Shown: positions 34,004 to 61,636 of the stretch, piece after piece | Position numbering within the stretch: position 1 is the first letter of the stretch | How the letters are laid out: every line of letters begins with the position of its first letter | Source: Polytrichum commune | Taxonomy: Eukaryota > Streptophyta > Polytrichopsida > Polytrichales > Polytrichaceae | Assembly: GCA_950295325.1 (NCBI GenBank) | Contig: OX485803.1 | Coordinates: forward strand, 36,905,554 to 36,969,553 | Length of the DNA: 64,000 bases | Reading direction: 5' to 3' | Made by a program: the position numbers and the translations under genes | Notes under the pieces: model-generated | What the model saw: the letters and a program-made list of their open reading frames with translations, nothing else | What the model was told of the DNA's origin: nothing | Databases searched by the model: none

Positions 34004-34437
34004 TTTCGGTCGTTCGACCCAAACATCTACGACATGAATAGGTTTAGGTGGATTGTGTATTTATATATTTCAGCATCATTTGTAATGATAATAAGAATGT
34101 TGTGATTATTGGGTGGATTTGCATTTTATATTGTTTGTGACATGCAGGATTCCTTGATACTTTTCCTTGATACATTCCTTGATTATTATTTTGGGTTGAT
34201 GTGAATTTTATATTGATGCAAAAATCATGGATTTCTTTATGAGTTTATAATTAGAAGACTTAGTTTGGGTCGTTCGACCCAAACATGATGCTTTGTGTTA
34301 TATTTTGGTCGTTCGGCCCAAACATGATGCTTTGTTTTGTGTTTGGGTTGAGCGACCCAAGCAAGGGGCTGTGTTTGGGGCTATGTTTGGGTCGGTTGAC
34401 CCAAACAAGAGGCTGTGTTTGGGTCGTCTCCCCAAAC
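34004..34437. promoter_or_regulatory. E2 palindrome cluster upstream of the fusion gene
   Basis: A copy at 34004-34023, just upstream of the start codon, and a group of about five at 34264-34437 with variable decay (centre mostly TT). They lie in the presumed 5' untranslated intron. Confidence 0.8.
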
Positions 34438-37400
34438 AATATTATTTTAATATATTTTTTAAACTTGGCATCTAGCATATACAATGCTTATGCATTGTGT
34501 ATGCTACAAAACCGTGAATATACAAACACATATTGGTTAAAATAAAACACAATACCTTTCAAAGATGTTGTGCAGACAATTTGGAGTAGAGCAGGTTGTT
34601 CTTCCAATAATTCTCAATATCAAACAAACTGTGAGAAAGTTCAATGAGAAACTTTCAAACAAGTATCAACTCTCTCAAATAGCTCTTGGATCTCTCAACC
34701 AACTCCTGAATCTCACACAGAACTACTGAATCTCTCAAAAGACTTCGAAATGTCTAAACCAACTCCTGAATCTCACACACAACTACTAAACCTCTCAAAA
34801 GCCTTCGAAATGTCCAAACCAACTCCTGAATCTCACACACAACTACTAAACCTCTCAAAAGACTTCGAAATGTCTAAACCCACTCCTGAATCCCTCACAA
34901 AACTATTGAATCTCTCAAACGACTTCGAAAACTCTCAAACAACTCTTGATACTCTTAAAGAACTCTTGAATTTCACAAGCACTCCTAAAACTTCCAGTAC
35001 AAACACCTGGACCTCCCAAACCGAAGCTTTATCTACTACCGAATGTTCTACTAACTTCCTTCAGCACTTTCCAATACTCTTCAACACTCTTTTGCTAACT
35101 TCCTTCACTCTCACGCTCTAAAACCTTCCTCCGTATGTTTCTGTTTCTTTCAAAACTCTTCCTAACTTCTAAGATTGCACAAGGGCTATTCTATTGAAGA
35201 GCAAAAGAAAGGAGGGAAAAGAAGATGCAGAAGAAAGCAATGAACACGGGAGAATGAAGGGTTAACCTACACCAAGCCTGATTCGCCGCGGCGCTTCAGG
35301 AGAGGCGGCGCTTCCAAGCGAGGCGCGGAGAGAGAGAGAGAGAGAAAGAAAGAAATGAGAAATGCGACGGTTGGGGTTTTGTTTACCTCGGGCATTGGCC
35401 CCCAACCGCATGAATAGGGTGCCCACAGGATTAGGGCACCCACGGAAACAGGGTTATAGGGAACCCTAAAACCTAAATCATAACGCTTGACTCTAAACCC
35501 TTAGCGGGCCTACCTCTTTAAGAGTACATAGGCTATTTGCCTCATAGCATAGGTTGCATTCTACAATATCAACTTTTTGTAAGTTGAAAACCTTTTGAGT
35601 TTGTAAGTTCCTCGCCAATTGCCTCAAAACTAAATTTTAGTAGGTTAAAATCCTTCATATCTTTTAATGTTGTAGGTTTTAAAATCAAAATTTGAGTACT
35701 AAGTGGGATCCTTCAAGTTGGCAGGAATCGAACCTGGCTCAGCCTTTCACCACGTTTGAAGGCCAAGGATTAACCAAGTCTTTTTTAAAGAGTTGATTAT
35801 AAGTTTTGAAAGCCTAGGTTGCTAAAATTCAAATGAGTTTAAGGGTGAAAGTTCTCACCATGTTCTCATTCAACCTCTACTCTTCCTGCAAGATATAGCC
35901 TAAAGATATGTACTTAGGCCAACTAATTTCCCAATTTGAAGAAGGATGAATGGCTAAAATCCTTTCTTTTAAAAAAAATTTAGGCAAAATTTCCTAAATG
36001 TTTTTATCACATAGGTTGATATCCTATGTTTTTAAATTGTCCATAGGCTCTTTGTCCTACACTTTCAAAATTTTATAGGCTAAGTCACTAATTTTGTAGG
36101 CTGCATTTGTTTTAATCGGTATATTCGTTAATTTGGGATTTTTTCGGCATTTTGAGAAAGTTACAAATATAAGAACATGGATAAAATCGCACGTACATTG
36201 GAGAATGTTGTAAGATGCAAATACTTTGAAGCGGGTGTTCATATCAAGAACGCAATTAAGATCTCATATGAAGATGGTTTAGGTAGGACGACCCAAACAT
36301 TACACTATGTTGTTGTGGTCCATATATTAATTTGAGAGAAGAGAAAATCTCAAATTAGCGAATTTTAGGGTTTAGGTTCTTTTGGACCCTGCTCTAAACC
36401 CTTATTAGTTTTTTCAAAAGAACTATGGAGTACCCTAAGGTGCTACATAAAATGTGTTATTCTACAAAACTAACCATTTATATAGCCAGCGCATTCTTAC
36501 AACAAAACTTTATGCTAAACTAATACTTATCCCCTACTTACATGACACCATACCCTAAATTTTCCAAAATCATTGAAGGCATTGGTTTCTCTTTTGTTTG
36601 AGCATGTTAGAAAATTTAAACCATATAATTGCGTTATATTTAACGATGTAACCATTCACATTTAGTCCTTACCAATGATGCCAACAATTCACACGATATT
36701 GAATGAAAAAAAAAAAGATTACCCACACCCCCCAACATGTGGAACAATTTAGAATAATTGAGTGTGGAGCCTAATAAATGAATACCTTCCCCAACTGCAT
36801 TTTGCAAGGGTTTTGAAATGCACGATCCTTATTTGAAAATGCGAACATGCTCAAGTTTTAAGTACATCCCTTAGATCGTGACTTTCACGAATCACATAGT
36901 CGCCAATAAATCATGGTTCATGATTTATTTAATATATAGATTGTGATATAAGAGTAAATGGGATAAGCACAACATCAAATGAAGCCATTCAAGCAATCAT
37001 GTTGTTATTCCCTGTTCCTTCCATGTATATTAGATGATGGCGCAAGATAAAATAGATGTTGTTTGTATATGGGGGCATCAGTGAACCACAACTACATTTG
37101 GTGTTTAGGGTTTAGGGTTTAGGAGATAGGAGATAGGAGATAGGGTTATAACATATTAATCTATCCAATGTCAATGTATAACATTGTCTTACTCGTGAGA
37201 AGAGTCTTATAGGAAGGTTATAGTGAAGACGATGTTGATTATGTTAATTTGTTATTCGAGACGTTTAAACGCGATATATTGATTGGTCGTGTGTTTATTC
37301 AAATAACATGAAATATTGTGGATGTTAATAGGGGCTAGGGGTCCAACTTTGGATGTTTCGCTCACTTTAGGGAATCACATATTAGTCGCTAATAAACCAT

Positions 37401-38306
37401 CGTTCATGATGTATTTAATATATGGAATGTCATGTAAAAGTAAATCGGAGAAGCACAACATCATGTTGTTATTCATTGTTCTCTCCACGTGTATTAGATA
37501 ATGGAGGAAGATATAACAGATATTGTTTGCATAATATGAAGAAGAGTCTAATCGGAAGGTCATAGTAAATACAATCTTGATCATGTTAATATGTTATATG
37601 GGACGTTTAAACATGATATCCTAATTGGTTTTGTATTTAGTCAATGCGTATTTCATGTTGTGGATGTTATAAGGGTTTAGGGTCCAATCTTGGATGTTTT
37701 GCTCTCACACATTAGTAAACTTGAAGTGAACTTGAGGATGGATTCAAGTAACATTAAAAGATTGAACTAGAAAGGGACATTGGTAGTTAGTATCCCCTTA
37801 ACAACGTCCACATACGTTCATCATTGCCACTCTTGCATGCGAGATAATAGAGCAAGGTTCTAGGGTTTAGGGTTTAGGGGGGACAAATAAATAATTCTAT
37901 TCATCATGACAATGGCCTCAAGCCTTGGAAACTCTCTCATAATTGCAGCCTCCAAATGGCCCAAACCCCACCTAAATAGGTTTACACTTGAAAGCATTGA
38001 ATGGAGTTGTGTTTGGGTCTACATATTGGTTAAAATATACCTTGATGATACTTGAAAAAATTAATGTGGCCGCCACCCTTCCTCCCAATGGCGTATGTCA
38101 TATCCACACAAAACAAAACAAATAGATTAAATAACATAGACTAAGTCATATGACGGCTAGGGTATCATAGAGGCATTGATAGATGCGCATTTTTCTATTA
38201 TAAACAGAAAACGGGGAATTCTGTCAGGAGGTTTGAAATAACCTCTGCAAGAGAAGAAGGCGGGGAAGGCATCCAATGACTAAGTCTGGGAAGCGGAGGT
38301 GGATAG
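34438..38306. other. E2 central non-coding region between the divergent genes
   Basis: No supported gene. It holds a short 60-bp tandem repeat (34690-34920, CTCCTGAATCTCACACACAA units), whose apparent Ser/Thr-Leu frame is a repeat by-product. It also holds a GA-rich block near 35325-35355, a MITE-like relic (36114-36372) and short telomere-like TTTAGGG runs (about 37107-37125, 37862-37880). The 5' exon and promoter of the minus-strand fusion gene are probably around 34600-35400. Confidence 0.5.
36114..36372 (+). mobile_element. MITE-like relic of the E2/E3 family
   Basis: The left side (TATATTCGTTAATTTGGGATT ... CTTTGAAGCGGGTGTT) matches the E2 left end and subterminal region (26678-26815). 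The right side (CATATATTAATTTGAGAG ... AAATCTCAAATTAGCGAAT) matches the E2 right end (44290-44332). Only about 260 bp remain, so it is an internally deleted derivative, degraded at the very ends. No duplication could be confirmed. Confidence 0.65.
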
Positions 38307-38313
38307 TATAAAG
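38307..38313 (+). promoter_or_regulatory. Possible TATA box of the E2 transposase gene
   Basis: TATAAAG followed about 30 bp later by a pyrimidine-rich stretch (TCCTTTTTTTCTCTTCTCCC) that would suit a plant transcription start. The palindrome array then lies between this promoter and the coding start, in a leader or leader intron. Confidence 0.4.
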
Positions 38314-38618
38314 GGGCGCACCCCCCAAAAGTCGGTCCTTTTTTTCTCTTCTCCCGCTGTCGAATTCGTAGAGAGAACTCTTAGTAGGAGCTGTACTTCA
38401 AGGTTCGTGCATGTTGCCGTTCATGAGCACTTATCCATAGCATGCAAGTTCATGAGCACCTATCCACACCATGCAAGCCCACCGTGAACTTTGCAATGAG
38501 CTCAAATTCAACACACCACGCAATATCCGCCGCATTATACGCCGGATTTTGTGGTGTACTTGGGCGAACCTTCACCTTTACACTAGTGTTGGCGGGTTTT
38601 GAGTCTGACCCTATGAGG

Positions 38619-39618
38619 TTTGGGTCGACCGACCCAAACCTGTCCACTAGTGTGTTAGGGTTTATGTCTGACCCTTAACATGTTTAGGTCGGTCGACCCA
38701 AACCCCAACCCCAGTGTGTTAGGGTTTTTGTCTGACCCTTATCAGGTTTGGGTCGACCGACCCAAACCTGTCCACTAGTGTGTTAGGGTTTATGTCTGAC
38801 CCTTGTGAGGTTTGGGTCGGTCGACCCAAACCCCTACCCCAGTGTCTTAGGGTTTTTTTCCTGACCCTTATCAGGTTTGGGTCGACCGACCCAAACCACT
38901 ACATGGTGTGGGTGGATGTACTCTTGTGAGGTTTGGGTCGGTCGACCCAAACCCCTACCCCCAGTGTGTTAGGGTTTTTTCCTGACCCTTATCAGGTTTG
39001 GGTCGACCGACCCAAACCCCTACGTGGTGTGGGTGGATGTACCCTTGTGAGGTTTGGGTCGGTCGACCCAAACCCCTACTCCAGTGTGTTAGGGTTTTTT
39101 TCTGACCCTTGTCAGGTTTGGGTCGACCGACCCAAACCACTACCTGGTGTGGGTGGATGCACCCTTGTGAGGTTTGGGTCGGTCGACCCAAACCCCTACC
39201 CGAGTGTGTTAGGGTTTTTTCCTGACCCTTATCAAGTTTGGGTCGACCGACCCAAACCCCTACCTGGTGTGGGTGGATGTACCCTTGTGAAGTTTGGGTC
39301 GGTCGACCCAAACCCCTACCCCAGTGTGTTAGGGTTTTTTTTTCTGACCCTTGTCAGGTTTGGGTCGACCGACCCAAACCCCTACCTGGTGTGGGTGGAT
39401 GCACCCTTGTGAGGTTTGGGTCGGTCGACCCAAACCCCTACCCCAGTGTGTTAGGGTTTTTTCCTGACCCTTATCAGGTTTGGGTCGACCGACCCAAACC
39501 CCTACCTGGTGTGGGTGGATGCACCCTTGTGAGGTTTGGGTCGGTCGACCCAAACCCCTACCCCAGTGTGTTAGGGGTTCAGTCCAACCCTTATGAGGTT
39601 TGGGCCGGTCGACCCAAA
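38619..39618 (+). promoter_or_regulatory. E2 main palindrome array, 17 sites
   Basis: Seventeen copies of TTTGGGTCG-NN-CGACCCAAA every ~55-65 bp. The two central bases alternate AC, GT, AC, GT over the first sixteen sites, so neighbouring sites point in opposite directions. The array is built of ~121-bp dimers with distinct spacers (GGTGTGGGTGGATG and GTGTGTTAGGGTTTT). It lies just upstream of the transposase frame. Open frames in it on both strands (VWVDRPK/FGSVDPN repeats) are by-products. Confidence 0.95.
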
Positions 39619-39790
39619 CCCGCACCAAAATAATTTCTGGAACTTGTTTTGGACTTGCACACAGTGTTGGGAGTTCACATTGTAGTTGTGTTGGAAATGT
39701 CTTCATCCTCGGTGTCCCCATTGATCATGGTGTCTTGCATTTTCCGATATTTGATTCTTTTGGACCCTTACATTCTTTCCATGTGTGTAG

Positions 39791-42700
39791 GCGCAATGGA
39801 GGGAGTTGGTGGAAGAGGGGATTCCTTCTCTGACGACATGGGCAAACACCCAATCTACGTCTGGGGATGAGCTAGACATTGTTGGGGAGGATAGTTTTGA
39901 TGACAGTGCAGATGAAGGTGACTTGGGGAGTCCTTCGCCATCTGCCCCTTCTTGCCCCACTGTGGAATGTGTTGGGCTTTCACGAGCTTCATGGGTGAAT
40001 TTGGATGTAGTACTTGTTAATGACAGTGGAGTTGCTGTGGCGGAGGGTATTTGTCGTAACACACATCCACAAGATTGCATTGATGAAAACCCCCTTGGCA
40101 CCGAGGACGTTGGAGTTGTTATATTGGAATCACTCGTACATTCTGAAGTGAATCCAACTCATAGGTTCTCGTTGCGAAGGTGGCCGTTGAGGAATGTGAC
40201 AATTGATGGGGTTAATTTGCATGAGCATGAGCGACGACACATCCAAATCCAAGAAGAGCTCCAAGCAAACATTCGGCCACGCAAAGGCCTACGGAAGTAC
40301 GATACATTGGCACGTCCTACTCCGTCTGCAAATGAGTGTAAACGTCAAAGGTTGCTTTGTGAGGAGTCCATTAGAGAAGTTGCCACAAAGGATTGTTGTG
40401 TACATCGTTGTTGCCAATTGTTCCCAAGGGATAAATTGAAGGCCATCCGCGAGGAAATGTGGCTTGGAGATTTCCGTCTAAGATCCACCAAAAAGCTTGA
40501 TGTCCATAGGGCGATACATGTGAACGGAGTGGGTCGCAAGGTCATCACCCTTGAGAGCATAGACGTGTGTTGTACCGCATGGTACATCATTCACGGTGTG
40601 TCGAAAGCGGAATTTTATAGACAAGCCGCGTATGCCAAGGAAGGCCGCCGGTCCCGTCACCATGGGAATACGGGCTTAAAGAAACCAAGGGAAGCAACGA
40701 GACAAGCAACCGTCACTCTGGCAACCATCATTGTCCCCCTTGCCGATGCAATGCCGCACAAAACACGCACACTCGCAACCGGTGAAAAGGTTGTGGAGAA
40801 GGTTCTTCCTACAGGCACGAAATGGAAAGACATATTGTTGGACGTAAACGCAGTTGGCGAGAAGGCTGGGTTGGACCCTATTTCGTTGTCGAAACTGAGT
40901 GTAATAAAAAAATCTCACTTTAGCGAATACATCACAAAAAGACGAGGCAACAAATTTGCCCGTTGTTCCAAATGCGAGAAGTTGAAACGCCTTCGAGATG
41001 CACACACGATGGGGACAGAGTCCTATGCCGCACATCAAATGAACTATTTCAAGCATGTGAACATGCAAGAGGCACACCGTAATGATTACTACACAAATAG
41101 AGCTTTGTCCATCTCTAGGCCTTTGGAGGTCCTTACAATCATCCATGACAAAATGGACCATGCCAAAACAGCCTCACCATGTTTTGCAAATCGAATCAAA
41201 GCCACGGACGGCCTTTTTAAGCTTCCTGTATCGGTTACAGGTGATTTCGATAACAATTGCATTGCATTACCTAAACACAAATTTGTGCTTTAGGTTTGTA
41301 CTTGGGGCCATAGATGTACACCATGTGATTTTTTTGGTGTTATAGTTGAATATTAAACCATTGGGTTGGCTTTACAGGGATGATTGCACATGGACATGGT
41401 GATGTCAAGTATGCTCATTATGCTCTTGATTTGTATCCGGCGGATTCAAACCACACGATAGGGTCATTTGCAAAGCTTTTACGTGATTTGGAGAAACCGC
41501 CGTCCTATTCATCAAGATTGTTATTTGAAAACTCGGGATCAACACCTCTATATGAAGCGGTCTTGGATGGAAGAGATGTATGCGTGCACTCCTTGCTGGA
41601 GCCACCAAGTGAAGATGTGATTGCCAAGAATTTGCCCCCAACTCTGCGTGTCCAATTGGACAATTGTGCAAAGGACAATAAAAATAGATATGTTTTTGCA
41701 TATTGGTCGTTGTTGGTTGCAAAAGGCATTTTCAAGGAGGTTTTTGTGTCCTTTCTATTGGTAGGCCACACGCACGATGATATCGATGCATCTTTTGGGC
41801 GGTGGAGCATGAAGTTGCGCGAGGAGGATTTTCCGACAATCCCATTGTTGATGAAGTTGTACATGGATTTGGAGAACATTCCCGTCATCCCCCATATGAT
41901 CGAGGAGGTTCCAGACTTCAAGGCATTTATAGAACCGTATATTCGAAGCGGAGCTCACCGATTGATCGGACATACGAATGCACAACAATTTTGGTTCTAC
42001 GTGCGTGACGATGGTGTCCCCGCCATGCAATACAAGTTGTTGTGCACGTCACAAGACTGGAGCCCGCCGGAGGGTCTCCTTGTATGGCGTGTTGATGGGG
42101 AGGGAAGGACGATGTTGCCTGACGGAGAGCCTAAGCCTTGCAAACCAATACTAATGAAGAATTTGGAGGACATTTGTTGTCGCGCACCTCTCCATGAGGA
42201 GTGCCCGCAACACCATGGGCACAAGGGGGACCCCGGAGTGACACCCGGGACTTGTGACGCCATTGGTGAGAGGGACCAAGTGATCCTAATGTGGGTGAGG
42301 GCCCCGGGCGTTTAGAACGCCTCCCACCCACAAAGACTAGGAGTCATGAGGGTAAAGCCATAAGCTATGAGTAGCTTATGGCGTCCCGATTCTAGAATGC
42401 TAAAGAACACCTCAATCTGAGGTGTGAGCTAGGAGATATGGCACTTTGAGTGGGATGCTGTCCCGGGACAGCGCCCTGGAACAGCAGGGGCCTGGGAGTG
42501 GCTCCCGGGACTGCAAAGGTTTAAACAGGCATAACTTCCTCAATACTTGCCCGAATAGGGCAAGTGAGGTGTCCATAGGGATCTACGTGAAATGTAGATG
42601 ACGATAGAGTGGTTGGTTGTTAGATTCAGAGACCGCACGTGGAAGTTATGAAGGTCTGAAGCTGCAGGGAGGCTTCTAGACCCAACGGCTAAGGGAAAAT

Positions 42701-43809
42701 GTCTACTTGGCCCCAACTCTTGGTAGAGAGACAAAAGGGATGTTGACGGTGGGGGAGGGGCCCCGCCAAAAGTCCTAGAGGCTTATATGGGTGAGGCGGC
42801 TTTGCCGACCGACCCCCCCGGAGCATACTTGGCAATGTGCTCCGGGTGGTTGTAGTGTTGTCCTAGCAACACTATGACCAAGTAGGGAGTGGACTTCCAT
42901 GGATGGAAGTCCACCTTAGCGATGGGTTACCTACTAAGGGGAAAGAGTCCCGAATGCATGTGTAGGAGGGTTTGGTGACCAAATATGGGATTGAAGGTCC
43001 GCGGTTTTGAAAGCTAACCATGCATGTGCGTGGGATGTGCAGGTTAGCGCTCGGGACACTTGCTAGAGTTGGAAAGCGATTGAGCTAAGTGGAGAAAAAC
43101 TAGCAAGGGTCGCGACATTTGTAAAGGCATATCAGGCTTCATACAATATTGGGAGAGTTTGAGGGTAGCGGATGTTGGTGGATCGTGTTGGCTTCGTTAC
43201 GGAAGTTGGATACAATATTGGACACGTGTTCGTGGTGCTTTGGCAAACCTTCATCAAGATACACCCCTTACTTTAAGGCATGGGTTTTGGCCACAAACAC
43301 GTGTCAATGTACAAGCTTCGGAGGCTAGTCTTTTGGGAAATGGAGAGGTTCGAGAGGAGTTTGATGTGGACGACCATTACGTGGGGCCTGCTAGTAGTCG
43401 TCCGCCACCATCTTTCCGCATTGCAGTGGATTGTCATGAAGGTTATATGCTCATTTTGCGTCCTGGAGATGAAACATATGCAAAGCCAGTGTGGGTGGCA
43501 AGAGCTTTGTCGAAACCAAATTTTGTAACTTCCAGCCCTCATTTTCGACAAATACAAGTAGAGTACTACCGACCGACAGCACGGAATGAAGATGTTGTTC
43601 GGCATTATACAGGCTGGGATACAAACCAACACTTTCGGTGGAAGGTGGATTCTGAGCACGGTCCATCTTGGGTAGATACAGATTCCATATTCATAGCATG
43701 GAAACCACGGAAAAATCATAGTGGATCAGTGTCCATCCCTCAAAAGTACATGACTTTTGCAAAAGACAACCTTGCTCGGATCGCAGAAGAAGCAACCCAC
43801 GTTGAATGA
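39791..43809 (+). pseudogene. E2 DUF7869-like transposase, interrupted by a solo LTR
   Basis: Exon 1 runs from about 39791 to 41240 and exon 2 from 41378, with a GT-AG phase-1 intron in the same place as in E3. The protein has a Cys-rich segment (TKDCCVHRCCQLF), CSKCEKLK, and the conserved blocks LTIIHDKMDHAKTA, VQLDNCAKDNKNRYVF and VGHTHDDIDASFGRWS, which supply the candidate catalytic acids of an RNase H-like transposase. Exon 2 is cut after LEDIC by the 940-bp LTR at 42178-43117. The frame is open again from 43123 and ends at 43809. The start is uncertain: there is no in-frame ATG before the well-conserved part, so an upstream exon or splice acceptor (GTGTGTAG near 39790) is likely. Identity to E3 is high through the core. 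Confidence 0.8.
42178..43117. mobile_element. Solo LTR of a retrotransposon, 940 bp
   Basis: Starts TGTCGCGCACC and ends GGGTCGCGACA, with TG...CA termini. It is flanked by the 5-bp duplication TTTGT (42173-42177, 43118-43122). It has no coding content, and the 940-bp length fits a single LTR left by recombination. Removing it and one TTTGT restores the transposase frame in line with E3. Family not identified. Confidence 0.88.
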
Positions 43810-44312
43810 GAAGTTGGTAGGATTGTGTTAGCATGATTATAGTGTAATATGTAATTCGACGAATATATATTACTCATATGTGTGCTCCTCAAACTTGGGG
43901 CAAAGTTTGGGTAGAACTTGCGAATGCTATATTGTTTGGGGTTGGATGAATATCCATTTACTATATTTCAATACAGTTGTGAAGTTCATTTTTTTATTAA
44001 GTTTGGGACTAAATTTTCCATTGAAGAAAAATGCATTTATTGCATGTACTTTGTATGTTGCAATGTCTATATTTTATTGACCATGCTAATAATAGAAATC
44101 ATTTTATATGTTTCTTGGGTGAAACTAGTTTGGAGTGCTCTACCCAAAGTGTTTTTGTTGATGAAGTTGGTGTTGAGTGCTCTACCATATCTGCTTATGT
44201 CCACACCCCATAGATTTGGGATATTAGAACATATAATATATTTGAGATTGTTCGCAATATAGTTTCGGAACACGGAATGTTGTTTGATCCATATATTAAT
44301 TTGAGACTAGAG
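43810..44312. other. E2 right subterminal region
   Basis: Transposase 3' flank and subterminal DNA, AT-rich, with no gene. TGGAGTGCTCTACC / TTGAGTGCTCTACC is repeated twice near 44132-44186. Confidence 0.5.
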
Positions 44313-44340
44313 AAAGTCTCAATTTAACGAATATAGTGTT
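44313..44340 (-). repeat. E2 right terminal inverted repeat
   Basis: Complement of the left end. A further GAGACT inverted copy just inside (44303-44320) could form a small hairpin, as also occurs just inside the E3 left end. Confidence 0.95.
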
Positions 44341-44717
44341 TCATATAGACGATGGCCTGATAGAAATTGGAGAGAGTGACCATGAGTAAGTGAAAAAAAA
44401 ATTTATTAAGTGATTGGATTTGAGTTAATCCATGCCGTAATGAGAGAGTGAACTGAGAAGTTGCAATACAAATTCATTATCTTAGATTGATACAATTGAT
44501 TAGACAAGTGCTTATACGATGGATCTGGTCTAATCATAACCAATCATGTTATTGTGAAGAATTGTCTTGAAGGGATTGATTTTGAGTAATAAGGAAAAGG
44601 TTATAGTTTGTGCATGATATTATTTTTGTTTACAAAGGATTGTGAGATGATCACCTACATTGGAGTATGAGGAGGCTATGGCCATTATTAGAAATAAGTA
44701 GAAGAGCTACTTGAGTT
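44341..44717 (+). repeat. Host repeat S, copy A, right part
   Basis: Begins TCATATAGACGATGGCC (the TCAT is the right E2 duplication) and runs colinear with copy B 63279-63570, ending near AGAAATAAGTAGAAGAGCTACTT. It has a stretch of about 80 bp (near 44500-44600) that copy B lacks. Confidence 0.9.
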
Positions 44718-45493: not shown

Positions 45494-45521
45494 AACACTA
45501 TATTCGTTAATTGGAGACTTT
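45494..45521 (+). repeat. E3 left terminal inverted repeat
   Basis: AACACTATATTCGTTA, then ATTGGAGACTTT. It matches the complement of 62816-62843 with about two mismatches and shares its outer 16 bases with both E2 ends. Confidence 0.95.
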
Positions 45522-49307: not shown

Positions 49308-49395
49308 GGATAGTCCTAACGCTTATTGTCAATGAAACACAATGTCAACAATAGTGGATTTCATGGCCTGGAAACAAAGACACATTGGTATACGA

Positions 49396-50431: not shown

Positions 50432-51652
50432 CCTCCGTGATTTGCGGCGCCATAATAGGACCATTTCACCAGGAACGATACTTGCCATAAACAAAAATCA
50501 ATCACTATAAGGATCCAGACAGTGCAATCCACATAAAATTGGCTCCACTAATGGGTTTATGGCTTGGAATTTAGTGTTTAGGGTATAAAAGGTCCATTGC
50601 AATAGGATCTGTACCTGCACGAAATAAACATCCAGAACACTACAAGGGTCCAAGCAGCGCAACCCACATCTGAGATGCAAAAAGAGTCCCTTGGTGGAGG
50701 GGTGTCCCCTTAAGTACTGATCGTTTCCCTTGGATCCGTTTTCCAACATAGGATACTAGCCACCATCTACGTCCTATAAATAAAAACCTAACATTACTAC
50801 ATTCCGTGTGCCAGCCTTACAATGGAATGTGTATTCATAGTGGACAACATGCATAGACGATGAGTCCACATAATGACAAAGAAAAAGGCATCTACGTATT
50901 TATGGTGGACAACAAAGAAAATAGGCTAATAATATATGAGCATTGAACATTGTTGAGGGGTGGTTTATAATATTGAAGTACCTAATATTGAGAGGTCATT
51001 GTAGAACTAGGAGACAGAAAATTATAGTGTCGTGTGAAACATCAACCACAACAACAACAATAGTACATGGAGTATAAAAATACGTGTCATTCAAAATTAA
51101 ACTAGCATCTATTTTATTGTTTTGCATACGATGTAATGATATTCACTCCAATATCATGTTATCTCCTCTCATCTAGCATTTAAACTAGTAATTACATTTG
51201 CCACCACCCTACCATCCAACCCGTTTAATTTACCCACTTTTACACACCTATACATAATTATACTAATACGTACACAAACTTTGAGCGCCTAGATGCCATG
51301 AAAATAGCACATCTATTGTCATAGGCACTATGGGTTGCTTTAAAATCAATATTCTCAATTTCCTCTCTTAACTTTAGGGCCCCCTTCAATACATCAACAT
51401 TTATTTCAAAAAAAATAATACTAGCATTCTTAATGTACTATACGTGAGACAAAAAACAATTTTTAGTACCCCATGTACATTATCTACAATATTGACTCAA
51501 ACAATAGCAGTTGTTGTTCTAAGTAACATTATGAGCCCAACAAACCATAATGGAGAGAAGGGGAGGGTTGGGTATCCAAATATTATAAAGGCAAGCAATT
51601 TTAAGTTGGTGACAGAAGGGGGATACTCTCATTAGTTCATACGTGGTACCCT

Positions 51653-51740
51653 AAATCCTAAACCCTAAACCCTAAACCCTAAACACTATACCCTATACCC
51701 TATACCCTATACCCTATACCCTATACCCTATACCCTATAA
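51653..51740 (+). repeat. Interstitial telomere-like repeat
   Basis: About four CCCTAAA units pass directly into about nine CCCTATA units, all heptamers. Plant-type telomere sequence inside the transposon. Confidence 0.9.
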
Positions 51741-54069
51741 CCGCCCACCCCTGAACAAACACAACGACATACGGTACGCATGGTTAACTGAATAACTCCC
51801 AATACATGTGTAGCCTTAAGTGGAAGTAATTCAAAACTATATGACTACCTTTAAATTTTGTAAAATAAAACCATAAACATTTCAAATGTGAAGCAAATTT
51901 AGGGGTAACCTTACCTTTCATTTTTTTAAATCTTTCTTTGGCTTTAAACCATTTGCTTTAAACATATACTTTTGATGAAAGGTTTTGAAGATCGTATATT
52001 GGTATTCTATAATCGAGTCCTAAACACAACTCACCACCGAAAGAAAACTCCAAATATAAACAAGTTTGCTACTACTTATAAGCGATAATACAAGCTGAGG
52101 CCTATGTGTGGAAGGATTGGATGGATCCGAAAGGTTGTTTAATGTACAAGAGGGATGTACATTCAACACATACCCATGCATTTTGTTTTAATACAAGCTT
52201 AGACCTATGTGTGGAGGGATTGAATTAATCCGTAATGTTGTTTAAGGTATTACAAGCATATGAATTCTCCCCATATCTCGATGTTTCGGTTTTGTTAATT
52301 GCGTTTCACAACTTATTGCGATAATTGAGGGATTCACAAGTATTTCTTGGCAAAGTTTCATGAGAATTTGTGGCCAATTGGTATATTGCCCCAATTGCAT
52401 TTGAATCCCACCTTTGAGAAGAAAAAGAATTCTTATACTGAAGTTAATCAACAAGACATCCTTTTATTGAATATTATTACTATTCTCGAAATATAGAGTC
52501 CCCTCCATAGCTCGGGGGGTGCACTGTACTAAACATGTACGAGTTATACGTGAGTGCACAGGAGGGGTATTGATTTGGACCTTGCCGTATTGCATATACA
52601 TATGGTATACATGTTATAATTTATAGTTACGTACATATATGGAAGGCCTTTAAAAAGTATAGAATAATTGTACTTGTATGGTATTGTTACTATACTATAT
52701 ATCATAAGTGTTCATATTGGATAAGTTTTCATAAGGTTTGGTTTGTTGGGAGAGTTTATAGGATGCGGAGGAAGTTTGGTAATCGTTGGGTGGAGTATAG
52801 GGATCCATTTGACTTGATGGACCGTCCATCAAACGTGGAGATTGGTTTATGTTGGTATCAAAAGGGGCTAACAACAAGTGGACATATGATCTTATTGATC
52901 ATTCCATGGTAGACTTAGAGACAATAATTGCATTTGTATACTTATGTTAATGACTCTCGGGGGGGGGGGGGGTAGTCATTGGTTGGAGTAGCAATATACG
53001 TGCAAACAAATGATAGGGTATTTTAAAAACATGGGGGCAAAAAATTATAAATGGACTTAAGAGTAATATAGGGTATCAAAAATGGCACTGGACATCTTTA
53101 AAGTAGTATAGGGTATGGAATAATTGGTAATTTGGAATTATAAGTAATGCAAGCCATTTTTCTATTAACCCAAAGTAGAAATTTATATAATGATAGCATG
53201 TGAAAAAAATAAGAGAATTGAAAGTAATACCCCCCTATATCCTTATTTTTTTAACACACTGCCCCCCCGAGTAATGACTAATATATATGAATGGATGTTT
53301 TTTTGTGTATACATATTGTCGCTTGTATATTTATTGTTGCAATTGTATGTGTATTACTTCATTTCACAAAAAATCACTTGTATATATTAGGGGGTTTTTA
53401 GAGTATGCAGTGAACGCACGTGATTCTAGGTTTTAATGAAAGGTGCTCCCCCACTCTCCATAGAGGCCACACTAGAAATTGTAGTTAGTTTCTCTCATTG
53501 TTTGGAGTTCCAAAATGATATTATTATTATTATTGATGTCATTTAATTGTTGACAATGACATAATAATTTACTCAACCTCACACCCTAATATAATTTCCT
53601 AAAATAATGAATACTTTCTAGAGCTCGTATGAATATTTCACTCATTATCAAAAGTGAAGAGAAGAGGCAACGAGATGGCTCATTTTATATTTAGAGTGAC
53701 ATTTAGTGTGACTTTTAACTTGCCTTAGCATAAACATAAGATGTTATTATGACATAATATGATAATAAAATCACCAAACTAAGTATAAATTAAACCCCTA
53801 TTTCAATACCAAATATAGACCAGTAGGGTGATGCCACGTAAGGGTATAGGCCGGCGATTGGGCGCGACGTTTGGGGTAGGGACACGTGGAGGCACGCCAT
53901 TGTTTTAGGGTTCCAAGTACTCCAGCACCCTTTCGCCCTCGCTCTTCGTGCTTTTCCTTCCTTCTCTATCATCTCTTCCTTCCGTTCCTTCTACTGTTGC
54001 TCTTGCTTCTCTTGCTTTAGGGTTATAGGGTTTCAAAGTACACCAGCTCCCTTTTGCCCTCCTCTTCGT

Positions 54070-54385
54070 GCTTTTGCTTCCTTCTCTTGCAACTCTTGTT
54101 TATCTTGTTTATCTTGTTTATCTTGCTCATCTGCTCTTGCTTCTCTTGCTCATTTGCTCATCTTCTCTTGCTCATCTGCTCTTGCTCATCTTCTCTTGCT
54201 CATCTTCTCTTCTTCTCTTGCTCATCTTCTCTTGCTCAACTTCTCATCTTCTCTTGCTCATCTGCTCATCTTCTTTTGCTTCTTTTGCTTCTCTTCACTT
54301 TCTTCTCTTGTTTCTCTTGCTTCTTACCCTTATCTTCACTTTCTTCTCTCTCTTCTCTTGCTTCCCTTGCTGGTCTTGCTTCTCT
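54070..54385 (+). repeat. CTCTTGCTCAT pyrimidine-rich microsatellite
   Basis: Irregular CTTGCTCATCTTCTCTTGCTCATCTGCT repeats. Hydrophobic Leu/Ser open frames across it in all three forward frames are by-products. It may be part of a leader. Confidence 0.85.
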
Positions 54386-55252
54386 TTCCTCACAATGCAA
54401 AACTCATTCTTATTGGTCAATTGCTGACGCGCGTCAGAGCTAGAGTAAGTTCTCCTTGTTTGCTGCTCATTTGCTTATTAGCTCATTAGCTCATTAGTAA
54501 GTTTTGCTTGCTGCTTGCTTGCTTGCTGCTCATTAGATCATTAGGATGCTCATTGTTGCTTGCTACTGCTCATTAGGTTGTTTTCAGTTGTTGATCTCAG
54601 TTGTTGCAAGGGTAATTAGTGTTTCAGATGTTGCTCATTAGGGTTTCAGTTGTAGCTTCACCATGTAGTTCATTATATTTTTTGCATACAAATCAATAGT
54701 TTCCTTTCACTTGTGTTGCATGAATCTGATTTATGAGCAACTTTTTTGAGTAGTTCTCAATGTTGAATCATGCATGTGCACATTGAATTACTAGAGGTTT
54801 CTGACCTCAATTTTATTGTTCATTTGCAGTTGGTATTAGCTGCAGCAGGAGCAGCTAGTTGTGGTTTAGGAGCAAACACTCTAGAAAGGTAAGTTTTTTA
54901 GAACATTGCAATTGCATTTTGTATGATTGCAATTTTGGGTTGTTGTGGTTTAGGGCTTAAGGTTAGCATGACAGAATGTGAGATTCCAGTTTCAAGGAAT
55001 TCTGAATTTGTTTAGTACTTTGTCTATGGCTACATTCTAAGAATCATTTAGTTATGGACATGTCAGTGTTCTGAAAGTGCCTTATGTTGTCAATCTGCAG
55101 TGCAGTGTTTGCTATTGCAGTGAAGTAAGATTGCATTCTTATTTGGAGGGCAAAACCATATTGGACGACAAGGTAAAGTCCCGAAAAACACGGAGCATTA
55201 ATGAAAACATTGGAATACGCAAACATTACAATAGCCTTTATAATCCTCAAAG

Positions 55253-55987
55253 TTTACGGACGCGCGTCCGTAAACTTTGTGGATCTTTGTGTAGGTGAGA
55301 GACAAGCCTCTCAAACAACATATTACGCAAACGAAGCCAAATATTGTAATATTAGGCATATTAAAATAGCCTTTATAATACTCAAAGTTTACGGACGCGC
55401 GTCTGTAAACTTTGTGGATCTTTGGGTAGGTGAGAGACAAGCCTCTCAAACAACATATTACGCAAACGAAGCCAAATATTGTAATATTAGGCATATTAAA
55501 ATAGCCTTTATAATACTCAAAGTTTACGGACGCGCGTCCGTAAACTTTGTGGATCTTTGGGTAGGTGAGAGACAAGCCTCTCAAACAATATATTACGCAA
55601 ACGAAGCCAAATATTGTAATATTAGGCATATTAAAATAGCCTTTATAATACTCAAAGTTTACGGACGCGCGTCCGTAAACTTTGTGGATCTTTGTGTAGG
55701 TGAGAAACAAGACTCTCAAAAATATATGTAGGTGAGAAACAAGACTCTCAAAAAATGTAGGTGTGAAACAAGACTCTCAAAAAAATATTAACCGTAACTT
55801 GAATACATTGATATTTACCACCATACTATCTTTGCGAAGTTTACGGACGCGCGTCCGTAACTTATAGAGATATTTGAGTATATATAATATACGCGTTATG
55901 CGTATTTGGAAGAAATGTATCTTTTCATTTGGATCCAAAAATATAATTGAGACAATTTGGAAAACTTTACGAACGCACGTTCGTAAA
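55253..55987. promoter_or_regulatory. E3 palindrome array upstream of the fusion gene
   Basis: Sites at 55253, 55388, 55523 and 55658 lie in an exact 135-bp tandem repeat. Further sites are at 55840 and 55966 (diverged). They sit in the presumed 5' untranslated intron that ends at the acceptor just before the ATG at 56043. The 135-bp repeat also produces a repetitive open frame on both strands, which is not a gene. Confidence 0.92.
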
Positions 55988-56042
55988 GTATGATCTATAT
56001 CTTTTGCCAAGAATTCTAACTTATCTATCTTATCATTTGCAG

Positions 56043-59000
56043 ATGGCATCTAAAAAGAGACATGCAATTGAGATGTTCGCAGAAGCTCTCATTCCTCCGC
56101 TACCAGAAGCCATCAAAGACATAAGTCCCAACGACCATTACAAGCCACAAGATGAAATTGTGGATAATTGGACAGTATTGGTAGAAAAGGACGAGAAAGA
56201 AATATTTGTGCTTAGATTTGCATATCAAATGAAGACGGACATAGATGAAGCTGAGAAGTGGATAAAGCTTAAATCGTGGACAGTAGAGTGTGCAGTGGCA
56301 CAAAGGGATTATGTAGTAATAGACCTTGAGAAGAAAGAAGATCGGGTCACTTTCATTTTGCACGAATCCTACCACCCCTTCAACAAAAATGAGTGTGAGA
56401 ATGCTAGTACAGATGCGGCTTGCTTCAATCTCCAGACGGAGTTCCAAGACTATGCATGCAATGCACCTTGGACGGGTAAGCGGCTTGGACGACTCTTGAA
56501 CAATGTAACAAGAGTAAATGGAGCCTTGCTAGAGGCCAGAAAGGGGAAAGATAAGAAAAAACAAGTCGTTCCTGAACGACCCAAGCGTGTGCCTAAACCA
56601 GTGCCGGAATCCTCAAGGCCCTCGCAGAGTGGTGCATCAAGAGGGAGCAGACAAGCGAGTAAACGCTCTCACTGGCAGATGGACTCTGGACTAACAGAGG
56701 GTCCGGATGTCAGCTCTACACTGACTGTCGCTCCACTCCTCAAAAAGGGTCAACGCCCTGACGCCGAACTCTCAACAAAAATATTCCAAGAGTTCGATGA
56801 GAAGACGAAGGGATGCTGGCCCCTTGGCATGTATTTTACTTTCGAAGTAGACGTCTACAAATGCCACAAGGGCACCGAAAGTATGAATACCAGAGCAAAA
56901 GAAGAAAGCGGTGTATGGTGGCAAATGAACAACATCATGAACAACCCCAAGTTTGATATGCAAACCATTTGTGTGACACCAAAGGATCCTATCGTTGAAG
57001 TCAACGAAAAGAATTGGCCGATTCTCAAGAATGGAGAGTTCTACATTGTCGACGGCCAACATAGTGTAATGGCTGCAAAAGCTCTCCTTGAAGACGACGA
57101 GTGGAAAAGCCCATTAAAGGAGACAATCCGATATTGGAAGGCATTCGTCGTGCATTCCAAGGACTCGAACCAACTCATAGCAATATCTGCCTTCATGAAC
57201 CAGGGGAATAAAGTGAGGCAGTTCGAGGCTTCATGGGCAGCCAACATCGTGGCTGGGAGGACCTTGTGGGTGGAGCACGAATGTCCCCCAAAAGAAAGAG
57301 ATAATGCTGTCGTGAAGAACCCAAAATGGCAGGTATGTTACTCAAATAGATTTACGGACGTGCGTCCGTAAATGTGGCCCTTCTCCTCCCACTGATTCAA
57401 ATATTTGAATTTAATTTGTACTGAATTCAATGTTCTGATTTCTTGCAATTCGCGCCTCTTGCAGACATTCAGCAATGCCATATTGACAAAGTTCTCGAGT
57501 ATAGACATGAAGACAAGCGGCATGAAAACAGTGCATGAATTAAAAGGCGAACTCAAGCTCATCACTGCAACAGAAGAGACGTGGTCAATATGGTTGCGAC
57601 TTTTCGATGCCCACAACAACGGCGACCTTGTCAATCCATATACGGAGAACACCTACAAGAGCGACTCAAAAGTTAAGGTACCACCAATCCTACGAGAGTT
57701 CTTTCGTCCCCTCCAAGGATTGATGGACTCGGAGCTGTACAAGGCAGCAGAACACATTCTTCTAGAAACTCCTAGAAGAACTCTGCCCTATCCCAAAATC
57801 TTTCTGAAGCGGCCGAAGCACATGAAGCCATCCACGTACCACATTAAGGAATGGTGCGATTACAGAAAGAAGAAGACCATGGCTGTAAGGGAGATTAGCA
57901 AATTGCTACCCACCCACAACCTCATTAATAGTGATGGTGAGATCGTGTGGGAGAATTGGAGGAAGCTGAAGGGTGAATACCACATCAATGGCGTCTCAAT
58001 GCGAGCTTTGATAAGAGGGGCATCATCCTTCCTTGCCCAACGATCCAGAAGGAACAAAAAGAAGGGATCCATCGACGAGAGGGAGGCAGGGTTGTATGTT
58101 CACTTTCTCGATAGGAAAAAGAACGCGAAATTTGGAGGGTTTGCAAGATTCTGCACGGTCGCAAAGGGCATGAAGTTCGGCGCATGGGACACCCATGCTT
58201 CAAGAGCCTCTGTGAGAGATGACCCCAGGGGTTGCCCTTTCGCCATTTTTGATTTTCGTGCAATTCCCGGAGCATGGAAGCAAGACGTTGCGGGAGCACC
58301 CTTCTACGAGCCCTTCTTAAAAGCCTTCAAGAGCTATCGCTCGCCTGCCCTCTTCGAGCCTCATGTGTGGTTATGGATTGTAGAGCAAGAGAGGTCCACA
58401 TCCATTGTCCATCTGTACACATCAACGATGGACCTCGAATACGATATGTACCACAACACCTACATCCCAGCGAAGACAGAAGGGATCACTTTCATTCAAG
58501 AGGCAAGGGGGGTGAAGCAAGTGGGAGCTGTGCAGCTTTATTTCTTAACACGCAAGTCTTCCCCAACTGGGCGATTGCCCATTAAACCACACGAGGTGTT
58601 CAGGAAAGTCTATTCGTTGCCGCCACCACATCCCAAGGAGCTTGTTGAGGAGACAATGCATGCAATCTATCCGGCGTTCGAGCTCCGGATGGACTTTTAT
58701 ATAGGGGTCTTGAAGGCTTTAACTGTCATGAGTGAGACAGTTTACAACGTCTTCGGAGGCACGAAGTTTATGTATGCAGCACTGGTGAGTATTTGTTTGT
58801 CTTTCAACCCACCTATCTTTTGCATAGTTATTTTACGGACGCGCGTCCGTAAAAACCCAGTATCAGGTGCATGTGAATTTTACGACCGTGCGTCCGTAAA
58901 ATTGTCCAACTTTTGAGTGGTGGTTTTACGGACGCGCGTCCGTATAACGTGTTGACATCTAGCCTCATTTATATGCAATCACCACTATTGTTCTTATCTA

Positions 59001-61544
59001 ATTTTCTTGTTATGGTCCAGATGCTTGGCTTGCAGGTGAATTCTTTTGTGCAGGATTCCGACTACGATGACGCCCATACTCACAGGGTAATGGCCTCCAA
59101 AATGGATATCCAGGACATCATGGACGTCCTTACACCCCATCCTGTTGTGCCTCTTTCTTCTAGAGAAGAGGCAATGCCCGGAATGGAGACAGACCCTGAA
59201 GAGGACCAAGATCCCAGTTCCCCAAGAGCGCAACCCTCCACACAGGAGCCTTTACACGGCCTTGTTCGCGACCCAATTAATCCAAGTGTTTTCCTGCTGG
59301 GAACAGACGACACGGATGCGCAGGAGGCACGCGTGAACTTCACTCCGATAAGGGTCCCTCATACCCCTGTTCTCTCACCTTTTGGGACTCCCACCTCTCG
59401 AGTTGGATTTCCCTCAACTGCGGGTCCATCTCGTGCTCCAGGAGTTATGGCCGAGAAGGATGTGGACCTTGCGGCAGAAGGCGGATGCACCGCTTCATCT
59501 GGAGGGGGATCTCAACATTCAGATCTACCCCCTATGGAGGGGAGGGATGTGCTGGAGTTGATATTGAGGCCTGATATCTCTCTATATCGTGAGAGTCGAC
59601 GAAAGAGGAACAAGACGCCATACAACGAATACCCTGAAGGCGCGGTCTTGGAGCTCTCCGATGAAGACGAGGATGAGATTAGGATTCACAATGCCATCTC
59701 TGCCTTGCCTACAGAACCTGGCAAGGTGAAGAAAGAGCCGATGTCAGTGTCCGAATTGGACGAGAAGATGGAGAGGCGAATGAAGGAAGAGCTTGACCAA
59801 CGGCTTCGAGAAGCTAACGAGGAGCACGCCAAAAAGATGGCCGCCATCCAAGCTGAGATGGAGCAAGCTAGGTTGGAGTCTGCTCGAAGGCACGCCGATC
59901 TCATGGCCCAAAATCAACAGTTCTTGGCCCAAAGTCAACAATTTATGAGCCTGATGCAGAGCTTGCAGGCAAGACCCCCTGTAGTCTATACAGCTCCCGA
60001 TGCCGTCATGTCTATGCCCCCCACTCTCATGCGGCCTCCGTCTAGTAGCCATGCGGTGTATATACCCGAGCATGCTTATCCAGCCCCCGCGTTGATTGTC
60101 CCGCCCTCTCCCCTTGTTGTCGCCACTCCAGAGGAGCCCTCCTCTCATCCTACAGGAGTGGAGGAGATACCGGCACGTGACATGGCGGGTGCCGCCGAGA
60201 CAGATGTCAATGAAGGCAATGCCCCCATCGGCGATGAAGATGTACATATGCGGGGCAGCCAAGACTCCACAGATGAGGATCAGCCTTACGTGGATACTCA
60301 AGGGTCGCAAGCGGCTGGAGACACCTTGTTGGTGGTCGAAGATCTGGACAATTTTGCGGACGCGCGTCCGGATCCTGTGCCCATGACGGGGCCAGGTGAG
60401 GGAGGCACTGCTGGCGCGGACCTCGCCCTTGAAGAGGTAATCAACCTTTGAGCATGCCTCCCACGTTACGGACGCGCGTCCAAAACTTCCTTGTCTGCCT
60501 CCTTCGTGGCGTGTGTATATTATCGAGTTCAATCCTCGACTTCGCCCGGCGGGTGGATACAATTTTGTTAGCATAGATTCCATTAACTTCAACAGATATT
60601 TTTTGCGACAATGTATATTATTCACCAAATGTATATCACCAATTACATTAATACCAATTTTTCAACTGGATGGTTCGGATTATTTTTGGCCTTATAATTT
60701 GTGTTGAGTTTATCCATGCTTGTCAATTGGTTTTCTTGAGTAGTACCATTTACCTAGATAGAATGTTCCATCACAGGGTCCGTCGGAGATATGTCGCAAC
60801 CCCGCGGGAAAACCAAGCGCGCCCATGATGAAACCGTTCATAATATTTGACCTCAATGGGGTGCTTTGTCAATCCAAACATATCTCGAATAGTGCGTCCA
60901 AGGGGCCCTTCCGTAGTCCACAAGACATGGATTACGGCGGACATTTCGATACTCTCATAAATAAGAAGGTTGTACGTGCCCGCCCCGGTTTGAGGAGCTT
61001 CCTTCGTGAGGTCCTTGGCTTCGCCCATGTCATCATCTGGAGCTCTATGCTCATGGACAACACGAAGGCCATCGTCGGTTTCCTTTTCCGAGAACTCGCA
61101 ATGCCATGCTTGCTTCTCGGTCAAGAACACTGCGATGACCTCTATGACCGTAGTGGCAATATTGTACCCAAGGTTGGAGGAGGTCGTGGGCCTCAATTCT
61201 TAAAGGTCCTGAGGAAGAACCTCTGGGTGGGCGTCCCTATGTTGGAGGGGGTTCCCCACGGTTGTTGGCCCACCCCGGATAACACACTCCTCATTGACGA
61301 CAGCCCGGCAAAGAGTATTCTCAATCCCCCGGGCAATTGCATATTCCCGGATCCTTGGGAAAGCGATAGAAATGACAACTTTCTAGAGAGTGAACTAGGA
61401 CCCTACATTAGGAGGCTTGCCTATCACCCCGGAAGTGTCCCGGATTTTGTGCTCTCCAACCCAATTGGCAATAGGCCTCTAGGCCCACAAGATGAGGAAT
61501 TTAGGAGATTGTACGGCTACGCTAGACTCAATAAATTAATATGA
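56043..61544 (+). CDS. E3 ParB/DGQHR-like - MTase-like - coiled coil - FCP1-like fusion protein
   Basis: Four exons, 56043-57332, 57465-58784, 59021-60436 and 60777-61544, all introns phase 0 and GT-AG, encode about 1,597 residues. Residues ~330-400 (FYIVDGQHSVMAAKALL, then LIAISAFMNQGNKVRQF) have the DGQHR signature and following helix of the ParB/DndB-like superfamily. Residues ~431-870 resemble a class-beta DNA N6/N4 methyltransferase in permuted order. DFRAIPG (~693) stands where DPPY is expected, then a strand HVWLWIVEQE. Finally IYPAFELRMDFYIGVLKAL with VYNVFGGTK and AAL resembles motifs X and I. Both catalytic motifs are degenerate, so activity is doubtful. Then comes a Pro-rich acidic region with a coiled coil (KMERRMKEELDQRLREANEE). 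The C-terminus is FCP1/NIF-like: IIFDLNGVL (~1367), VIIWSSM, LLIDDSPAKSILNPP; the second catalytic Asp is Asn. One mRNA is inferred from splice sites conserved with E2. Confidence 0.72.
57351..57372. promoter_or_regulatory. E3 palindrome in intron 1 of the fusion gene
   Basis: TTTACGGACGTGCGTCCGTA plus AA, one central mismatch from perfect, inside intron 57333-57464. Equivalent to the three E2 sites in its intron 1. Confidence 0.9.
58832..58946. promoter_or_regulatory. E3 palindromes in intron 2 of the fusion gene
   Basis: Three sites at 58832, 58878 and 58925, spaced about 46 bp, all within intron 58785-59020. Equivalent to the pair in E2 intron 2. Confidence 0.9.
60353..60486. promoter_or_regulatory. 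E3 palindromes in exon 3 and intron 3 of the fusion gene
   Basis: The site at 60353-60374 is coding (read as FADARPD), near the end of exon 3. The site at 60465-60486 is a decayed copy inside intron 60437-60776. E2 has palindromes in the same exon and intron. Confidence 0.85.
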
Positions 61545-61636
61545 AAACTTTGATGATTTTGGGTTTGTACTTGGACTCTCCATGTAAATATCTAACATTT
61601 CTCCCCTTATCTTTGTAATGTATTTTTGTGTCTTAG

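Follow-up and report, generated by a model that had tools for sequence, protein, structure and literature searches.

Two large transposons of Polytrichum commune carry family-private palindromes that may be read by an element-encoded ParB-fold protein

A 64,000-nucleotide stretch of the Polytrichum commune genome (assembly GCA_950295325.1, contig OX485803.1, positions 36,905,554 to 36,969,553 of the forward strand; C1:36905554-36969553 in our numbering; hereafter the window) contains two large DNA transposons, E2 and E3, each of which is studded with its own CpG-containing palindrome and lacks that of the other. Palindrome type follows the type of a ParB-like gene carried by the same element, and the palindromes lie mainly in promoters and introns. 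We consider it slightly better than an even bet (a probability of about 0.55) that this gene encodes a ParB-fold, self-specific regulator that binds the family-private palindromes with a regulatory or anti-silencing effect.

Both ends of each element are present:

26672-44340 (17,669 bp): E2, DNA transposon; terminal inverted repeat (TIR) AACACTATATTCGTTAAATTGAGACTTT; target site duplication (TSD) TCAT at 26668-26671 and 44341-44344
45494-62843 (17,350 bp): E3, DNA transposon in the orientation opposite to E2; TIR AACACTATATTCGTTAAATTGAGACTTT; TSD ATGG at 45490-45493 and 62844-62847

The E2 TIR is a 28-bp terminal inverted match (26672-26699 with 44340-44313), that of E3 is a 28-bp match with 27 of 28 bases identical (45494-45521 with 62843-62816), and both elements begin AACACTATATTCGTTA, their ends being nearly identical to each other. 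The boundaries are exact because each element interrupts a local repeat, present in two copies, that is left uninterrupted in the other copy: the empty site of E2 is a single TCAT at 63279-63282, with a flank similarity of 94-96%, and that of E3 a single ATGG at 26152-26155. Besides their ends, the elements share their gene order and a DUF7869 protein, each carrying two divergent genes, the DUF7869 gene and a multi-exon ParB-like gene. They are best explained as diverged families of one large plant DNA transposon.

The E2 palindrome, GTTTGGGTCGNNCGACCCAAAC, occurs at 31 sites with up to three mismatches (37 within five); its 22-mer has 23 exact copies, and its 20-mer has 31 matches at up to two mismatches against a largest shuffle count of 0. 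For the E3 palindrome, TTTACGGACGCGCGTCCGTAAA, there are 17 sites with up to three mismatches (shuffles 0), eight of them exact, and 21 within five. An earlier sequence-only reading of the window had each palindrome occurring dozens of times, which is right for E2 and generous for E3. Its observation that neither element has the other's version held at up to four mismatches, with no cross-type match in E2 or in E3 and a single E2-like match in E3 at five. The half-sites are likewise confined to their own element (TTTGGGTCG, n = 54; TTTACGGACG, n = 25), and of the 70 matches that an unbiased search for palindromes in the window gave (half-length 11, up to two mismatched pairs), 47 were these two palindromes or close variants. 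Read from the centre outward, the half-site is N-G-C-T-G-G-G-T-T-T-G in E2 and C-G-C-A-G-G-C-A-T-T-T in E3; positions 2, 3, 5, 6, 9 and 10 agree, positions 4, 7, 8 and 11 differ, and position 1 is free in E2. The outsides had been described as TTT...AAA, to which should be added that the E2 palindrome extends one outer base pair further (GTTT...AAAC). The centre-aligned frame common to both, TT..GG.CG, suggests a point beyond the first description, namely that both palindromes are variations on a single layout.

The same association was found across the genome (407.8 Mb searched; the seven long contigs sum to about 406 Mb). Protein searches gave about 1060 first-look candidates for the ParB-like exon, with 109, 96 and 94 scored using three queries. 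Loci were then fetched by protein alone, as 2.4 kb around exon 1, and picked for diverse frame length and, where it varied, identity, giving 20 E2-clade loci (80-88% ParB identity) and 10 E3-clade loci (77-93%). All 30 bear the palindrome of their own clade and none bears the other. Together with six clusters and the E2 and E3 of the window, 38 of 38 elements (21 E2-clade, 17 E3-clade) carry only their own palindrome at up to four mismatches, the six clusters not being independent tests of type because they were chosen for holding exact E3 palindromes; at five mismatches, one E2-like match was found in 22 E3-clade stretches and one in the E3 of the window. The exact E3 palindrome occurs at 878 places in 408 Mb and its reversed control at none. 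Collecting more family members had been proposed from the sequence, as had the contrary case to look for, the same protein with unrelated palindromes; palindrome type co-segregated with the ParB-like exon without exception, and no such case was seen among the 38 elements.

The sampled loci are at least 77% identical to one or other element of the window, so intermediate types are visible only via peptides. The protein database held 17 E3-like and 50 E2-like or intermediate exon proteins, and the palindrome can be read as a peptide because many of these run past the splice donor into intron 1. Among 42 readable tails (at most one residue difference), the expected type was found in 27, the other type in none and neither type in 15, most of the latter being too short or uninformative. 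The E3 palindrome was present in 9 of 11 readable E3-like tails and the E2 palindrome in 18 of 30 readable E2-like tails, while 25 of all 67 tails were unreadable. A tree of 86 ParB-like exons separates the types fully at 100/100 support, with a lone third lineage, P0066, on a long and uncertain branch. The six readable residues of P0066 match neither type; a search of the genome with this protein gave no close copy among its matches (44-46% identity), and the 20 loci fetched from them were all E2-clade. Scans of IMG/VR gave no relatives and no E2 palindrome.

Some tails may also spell palindromes of further sub-clades. Those of P0042-P0045 (support 100/99) read VSGDRPK or ISVDRPK, and the longest perfect palindromes that they can encode are TTTCGGGCGATCGCCCGAAA and TTTCGGTCGATCGACCGAAA, one each, with the two centre bases free. 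The tail of P0049, VSVARPK, which was counted as E2-type within one residue, likewise points to TTTCGGTCG. P0005 and P0008, whose clade (99/92) includes P0006 and P0007 with unreadable tails, are compatible with TTACGGCC-type palindromes, their peptides permitting several. In control decodings, the true E2 peptide returned the E2 palindrome and two control peptides encoded none. The sub-clade palindromes predicted from these peptides (TTTCGGGCG.., TTTCGGTCG.. and TTTACGGCC..) would alter position 4 or 7, plus position 1 in P0005, and retain TT..GG.CG. A perfect TTTACGGCCGCGCGGCCGTAAA, with the same position-4 change as is compatible with the P0005 and P0008 peptides, is found once in an E3-clade element of the genome (L015-L016 joined, 16754).

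The genes of the two elements are as follows:

39806-43809, plus strand: E2 transposase gene (DUF7869; PF25273, E = 4.1e-44)
46187-49307, minus strand: E3 transposase gene (DUF7869; PF25273, E = 4.5e-40)
32651-33976, minus strand: E2 ParB-like exon 1, with one in-frame stop at 32846-32848 in this copy
31100-32431, minus strand: E2 exon 2 (p2), 37% identical to E3
29452-30939, minus strand: E2 exon 3 (p3), 25% identical to E3; HTH_17 match below cut-off only
28153-28962, minus strand: E2 exon 4, NLI-interacting-factor-like (NIF) phosphatase domain (PF03031, E = 3e-14)
56043-57332, plus strand: E3 ParB-like exon 1, weak PH/FERM-like N-terminal domain and predicted ParB N-domain fold (residues 264-392)
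57465-58784, plus strand: E3 exon 2 (p2), without a Pfam match
59021-60436, plus strand: E3 exon 3 (p3), without a Pfam match
60777-61541, plus strand: E3 exon 4, NIF domain (PF03031, E = 4.4e-13)

The sole Pfam match above cut-off in the transposase exons is DUF7869, which both elements pass (137.7 and 150.9 bits; gathering cut-off 26). This protein is presumably the transposase, because its gene sits inside an element bounded by TIRs and TSDs; a literature search found no paper that uses the name DUF7869, a domain of unknown function. Identity between the E2 and E3 transposases is 67-76% in the two blocks that match best, 53% in the last block and 65-68% in exon 1. The corresponding identities in the second gene are 29% for the ParB-like exon, 37% for p2, 25% for p3 and 42% for the NIF domain. 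The four exons of each second gene join in phase 0 across GT...AG introns, and the joined frame is free of stops in E3 and has a single one in E2, in the ParB-like exon; from the conserved blocks and these splice signals we infer a four-exon gene. Both NIF domains read DLNGVL, and classic FCP/SCP phosphatases carry a DxDx motif; the phosphatase may be inactive or altered, because DLNGVL stands in place of DxDx.

The label ParB-like, given in the sequence-only reading, is supported by fold comparison of a predicted structure (VIA-align), which points to a ParB N-domain fold for this exon. A sequence profile run against solved structures gave weak, unrelated matches only (best E 0.049). A structure predicted from 10 sequences was set aside (predicted local distance difference test score 34). 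Where ParB proteins have a helix-turn-helix DNA-binding domain following the N-domain, helices are predicted here at residues 375-390, 398-411 and 416-425, with a model confidence below 60 beyond about residue 390. The position of the CTP (cytidine triphosphate) motif is occupied by D337, G338, Q339, H340 and S341, which are invariant or at least 90% conserved among 44 sequences. The GERR-type motif, which we take to be the CTP-binding motif of ParB, here reads GQHS, and a CTP-clamp mechanism of the bacterial-partition (parS-like) kind is disfavoured by this reading.

Relative to these genes, the sites are placed as follows:

38618-39619: E2, array of 17 palindromes in the transposase-gene 5' flank
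34003-34406: E2, five sites 5' of the ParB-like gene, with the centre of the last one about 38 bp ahead of the ATG
32522-32641: E2, three sites in intron 1 (32432-32650) of the ParB-like gene
31014-31071: E2, two sites in intron 2 (30940-31099) of the ParB-like gene
29731-29821: E2, two sites within the exon 3 coding sequence
29409-29430: E2, one site in intron 3 (28963-29451) of the ParB-like gene
36277-36298: E2, one degenerate site (two mismatches) in a nested copy described below
49389-50431: E3, sites in the transposase-gene 5' flank, including a 95-bp tandem array at 50030-50431
47770-47791: E3, palindrome variant CTTACGGATGTACATCCGTAAC between conserved transposase-gene blocks
55253-55987: E3, sites preceding the ParB-like gene, in a 135-bp tandem array and close to the ATG
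57351-57372: E3, one site in intron 1 (57333-57464) of the ParB-like gene
58832-58946: E3, three sites in intron 2 (58785-59020) of the ParB-like gene
60353: E3, second four-mismatch site, in the exon 3 coding sequence
60465-60486: E3, degenerate site (four mismatches) in intron 3 (60437-60776) of the ParB-like gene

The palindromes thus occupy mainly promoters and introns and avoid coding sequence, which holds 2 of 31 sites in E2 and 0 of 17 in E3 against about 45% of the sequence being coding (p = 3e-6 and 5e-5, with array sites non-independent). Sites had been said to sit at equivalent positions in the two elements, and this applies to the three introns of the ParB-like gene (the E3 intron 3 site being degenerate), to its 5' flank and to the transposase-gene 5' flank; the interval drawn around them began too late, at 34004, leaving out eight E2 sites at 29410-32640. 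In both elements the outer 2.7-4.7 kb are free of sites at up to three mismatches. Nearer the ends, E2 has degenerate matches with four mismatches at 26924, 27024 and 27579 and with five mismatches at 163 and 191 bp from its ends; E3 has no match at up to five mismatches within 2.3 kb of its ends. One position recurs among the fetched loci: all 20 of the E2 clade have a degenerate ATG-proximal site (1-3 mismatches) at a fixed -36 to -38, and the 10 E3-clade loci have a site at -55 to -68 from the ATG, degenerate in eight and near-perfect in two.

Aligned sites were far better conserved than their surroundings. Among 286 E2 sites, picked by similarity, each column holds 1.3-1.9 bits (NN centre 0.5-0.6), and among 145 E3 sites picked in the same way 1.3-2.0 bits; the 25-base flanks hold mostly 0.0-0.3 bit (about 0.1), rising to 0.65 directly beside the E3 site. 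The E2 mismatch profile is free of the bias from similarity picking; intact sites form a sharp peak in it, separated by a gap from matches that are degenerate or due to chance: with 0 to 7 mismatches there were 161, 56, 26, 6, 0, 4, 25 and 31 sites in the 20 E2 loci, and 78, 61, 30, 20, 19, 6, 4 and 3 in the 22 E3 stretches. Site spacings are 32, 35, 57, 73-75, 85 and 97 in E2 and 53, 66-71, 95, 102 and 135 in E3; since the lengths of array units vary this widely, the palindrome persists while the units are replaced. Deviations at CpG bases are mostly transitions (48 against 5 transversions in E3 sites, 30 against 41 elsewhere in the site; 18 against 1 in E2 sites, 53 against 66 elsewhere), an excess such as cytosine methylation in some copies would be expected to leave.

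Taken together, we favour a mechanism in which palindromes of about 22 bp, CpG-containing, private to each family and apparently held by selection in promoters and introns, would most likely be bound in a two-fold symmetric manner by the product of the second gene, a putative fusion of the ParB-fold exon, the p2 and p3 exons and the NIF-phosphatase-like domain. Binding would mark the element's own noncoding DNA and control its expression, the most plausible effect being to keep silencing (DNA methylation) away from its promoters and introns or to clear it from them; autoregulation through the site just before the start codon of the second gene may be an added or alternative effect. Specificity would have shifted between families at half-site positions 4, 7 and 8 from the centre, so that the copies which a family recognises and controls may be its own alone. 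Several points set limits to this reading. Co-segregation cannot single out the ParB-like gene over the transposase, because all genes of an element are inherited together. Bit values inside the sites are inflated, because sites were picked by similarity (at most five mismatches). Complementary double changes, which are in excess in E3 sites (45 complementary and 10 other, 9.8 expected), are not so in E2 sites (1 and 11, 3.0 expected), so that two-fold symmetry is argued from E3 and from the palindromes as such. The claim that protein and site diverge together stands as to clade, in the 38 elements and in the database tails, and falls short as to which protein binds. No recombinant between families was found among the seven elements in which both the transposase and the ParB-like exon could be read at least partly (E2 and E3 of the window and five of six cluster pairs, L013-L014 being without its transposase part), and seven are too few.

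The transposase had been named as an alternative binder. It is the weaker candidate, and we regard it as unlikely that the DUF7869 protein or its N-terminus binds the palindromes, whether to regulate its own gene or to build a transposition complex as TnpA does on CACTA subterminal sites. The largest E2 array, with its 17 sites, and the 95-bp array of E3 do lie directly upstream of the transposase gene, and the transposase itself diverges between the families. However, good sites are absent near every element end, the two families have nearly the same TIRs but different palindromes, and the introns of the other gene are also full of sites. Site placement disfavours end recognition as the main role of the palindromes, and the degenerate matches near the E2 ends, some within 200 bp, keep the transposase a candidate.

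A host factor, such as a transcription factor or a methyl-CpG-sensitive reader, with each family exploiting a different one, is a little less probable again. Sites that contain CpG and lie in promoters and introns would suit such a factor, and binding by an element protein is predicted only; the common TT..GG.CG frame and the apparent drift at few positions along the element phylogeny nevertheless fit one co-diverging binder better. Moreover, among the matches listed for the 878 exact E3 palindromes, the seven clusters read (on one contig) were all elements.

It is quite improbable that the palindromes work at the RNA level, as hairpins within introns and untranslated regions that control the splicing or export of element transcripts. 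By inspection, a palindrome of 22-24 nt could form a stem of 9-10 bp with a 4-nt loop, and all three introns of the second gene have palindromes, but the bases next to the centre, the would-be loop, show the same conservation as the stem, compensatory changes are not in excess in E2 sites, and many sites are hundreds of bases away from the ATGs on the upstream side, where transcription is only presumed. Least probable of all is that the palindromes are a functionless ancestral repeat spread by tandem duplication and gene conversion, for although many sites are arrayed in tandem and many members of a family are almost identical to one another, the palindromes stay intact beside flanks of about 0.1 bit and among differing array units, are placed strongly outside coding sequence, and are mostly intact or one change away despite the ongoing decay seen at CpG bases.

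Further features of the window were recorded. Nested in E2 at 36120-36373 is a copy of about 254 bp, like a miniature inverted-repeat transposable element formed by internal deletion, which matches 26677-26860 at its left end (79%) and 44277-44341 at its right end (85%) and bears one degenerate E2 palindrome. A short telomere-like (ACCCTAA) tract lies within E3 at 51647-51742, and just outside E3 a tandem array at 63591-63989 has a 42-bp unit containing a different palindrome, TGGGCTAGCCCA. Copies of 203 bp, two in tandem, match at 100% at 21388-21797. The minus strand at 4747-13242 encodes a CACTA-type set (Tnp2, DUF4216 and DUF4218), with the Tnp2 at 11764-13242, and a PGG/ankyrin protein; these genes and the CCCTAAA-type repeats of the window point to a land plant.

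Known transposons share some of these traits. Members of the CACTA superfamily have CACTA ends, a 3-bp TSD and a Tnp2 transposase; E2 and E3 have ends AACACTATATTCG, a 4-bp TSD and no PF02992, and membership is rejected. The CACTA (En/Spm) TnpA protein has many repeated sites in its element, which are subterminal and short. E2 and E3 are alike in having many repeated sites inside the element and differ in that their good sites lie far from the ends, in addition to their non-CACTA TSD and TIR. Mutator-type membership is also rejected, given the 4-bp TSD of both elements, the different ends and DUF7869 as the only Pfam match above cut-off in the transposase exons. VANDALs have a Mutator-like transposase and a TSD of about 9 bp, in contrast to the DUF7869 protein, 4-bp TSD and fusion of a predicted ParB fold with NIF found here. 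To our knowledge, the ParB fold is rare in eukaryotes outside sulfiredoxin, and the favoured reading, if true, would add a eukaryotic use of it. A search of titles and the starts of abstracts gave no description of elements of the E2/E3 type; a paper on the transposable elements of Ectocarpus contains one mention of ParB (PMC12477816).

ParB and Noc belong to a fold family that is reported to be able to switch its palindrome preference (PMC7383237). Compared with the bacterial ParB-parS and Noc-NBS (Noc-binding site) systems, E2 and E3 are eukaryotic transposons in which tens of sites per element take the place of a centromere, their sites are neither parS nor NBS, and DNA binding is predicted here. 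The closest likeness is to the VANDALs of Arabidopsis, for which self-specific anti-silencing is documented (PMC5735166). VANC proteins are reported to bind family-private noncoding motifs and to cause loss of methylation, the protein and its tandemly repeated motifs co-diverging (PMC5735166, PMC10398659). The shared traits are an element-borne accessory gene, a family-private motif that is clustered, often tandem and noncoding, differences between related families, and rapid divergence of the arrays; the motifs differ, those of VANC21 being 9 bases long and non-palindromic and those of VANC6 8 bases long, against CpG palindromes of about 22 bp in E2 and E3 (PMC5735166, PMC10398659). A Pfam scan of 10 exons of E2 and E3, without direct comparison to VANC sequences, found no VANC-type domain. 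E2 and E3 nonetheless have the VANDAL/VANC-type pattern of a private motif clustered or in tandem in the noncoding DNA of its own family, and our best reading is that their system would work like VANDAL/VANC anti-silencing, built from unrelated parts. The fuller version of this, in which a plant transposon superfamily, independently of VANC, has turned a ParB-fold protein and parS-like arrays into a means of self-recognition, with protection or activation confined to copies of the same family and with specificity moving stepwise at positions 4, 7 and 8 as families split, we put forward tentatively, as somewhat short of an even chance. If true, the hundreds of genomic copies would be a large natural set of protein-site pairs in which to study co-changing DNA-binding specificity, and a second, unrelated system beside that of the VANDALs would suggest that private pairs of site and protein are a recurrent solution.

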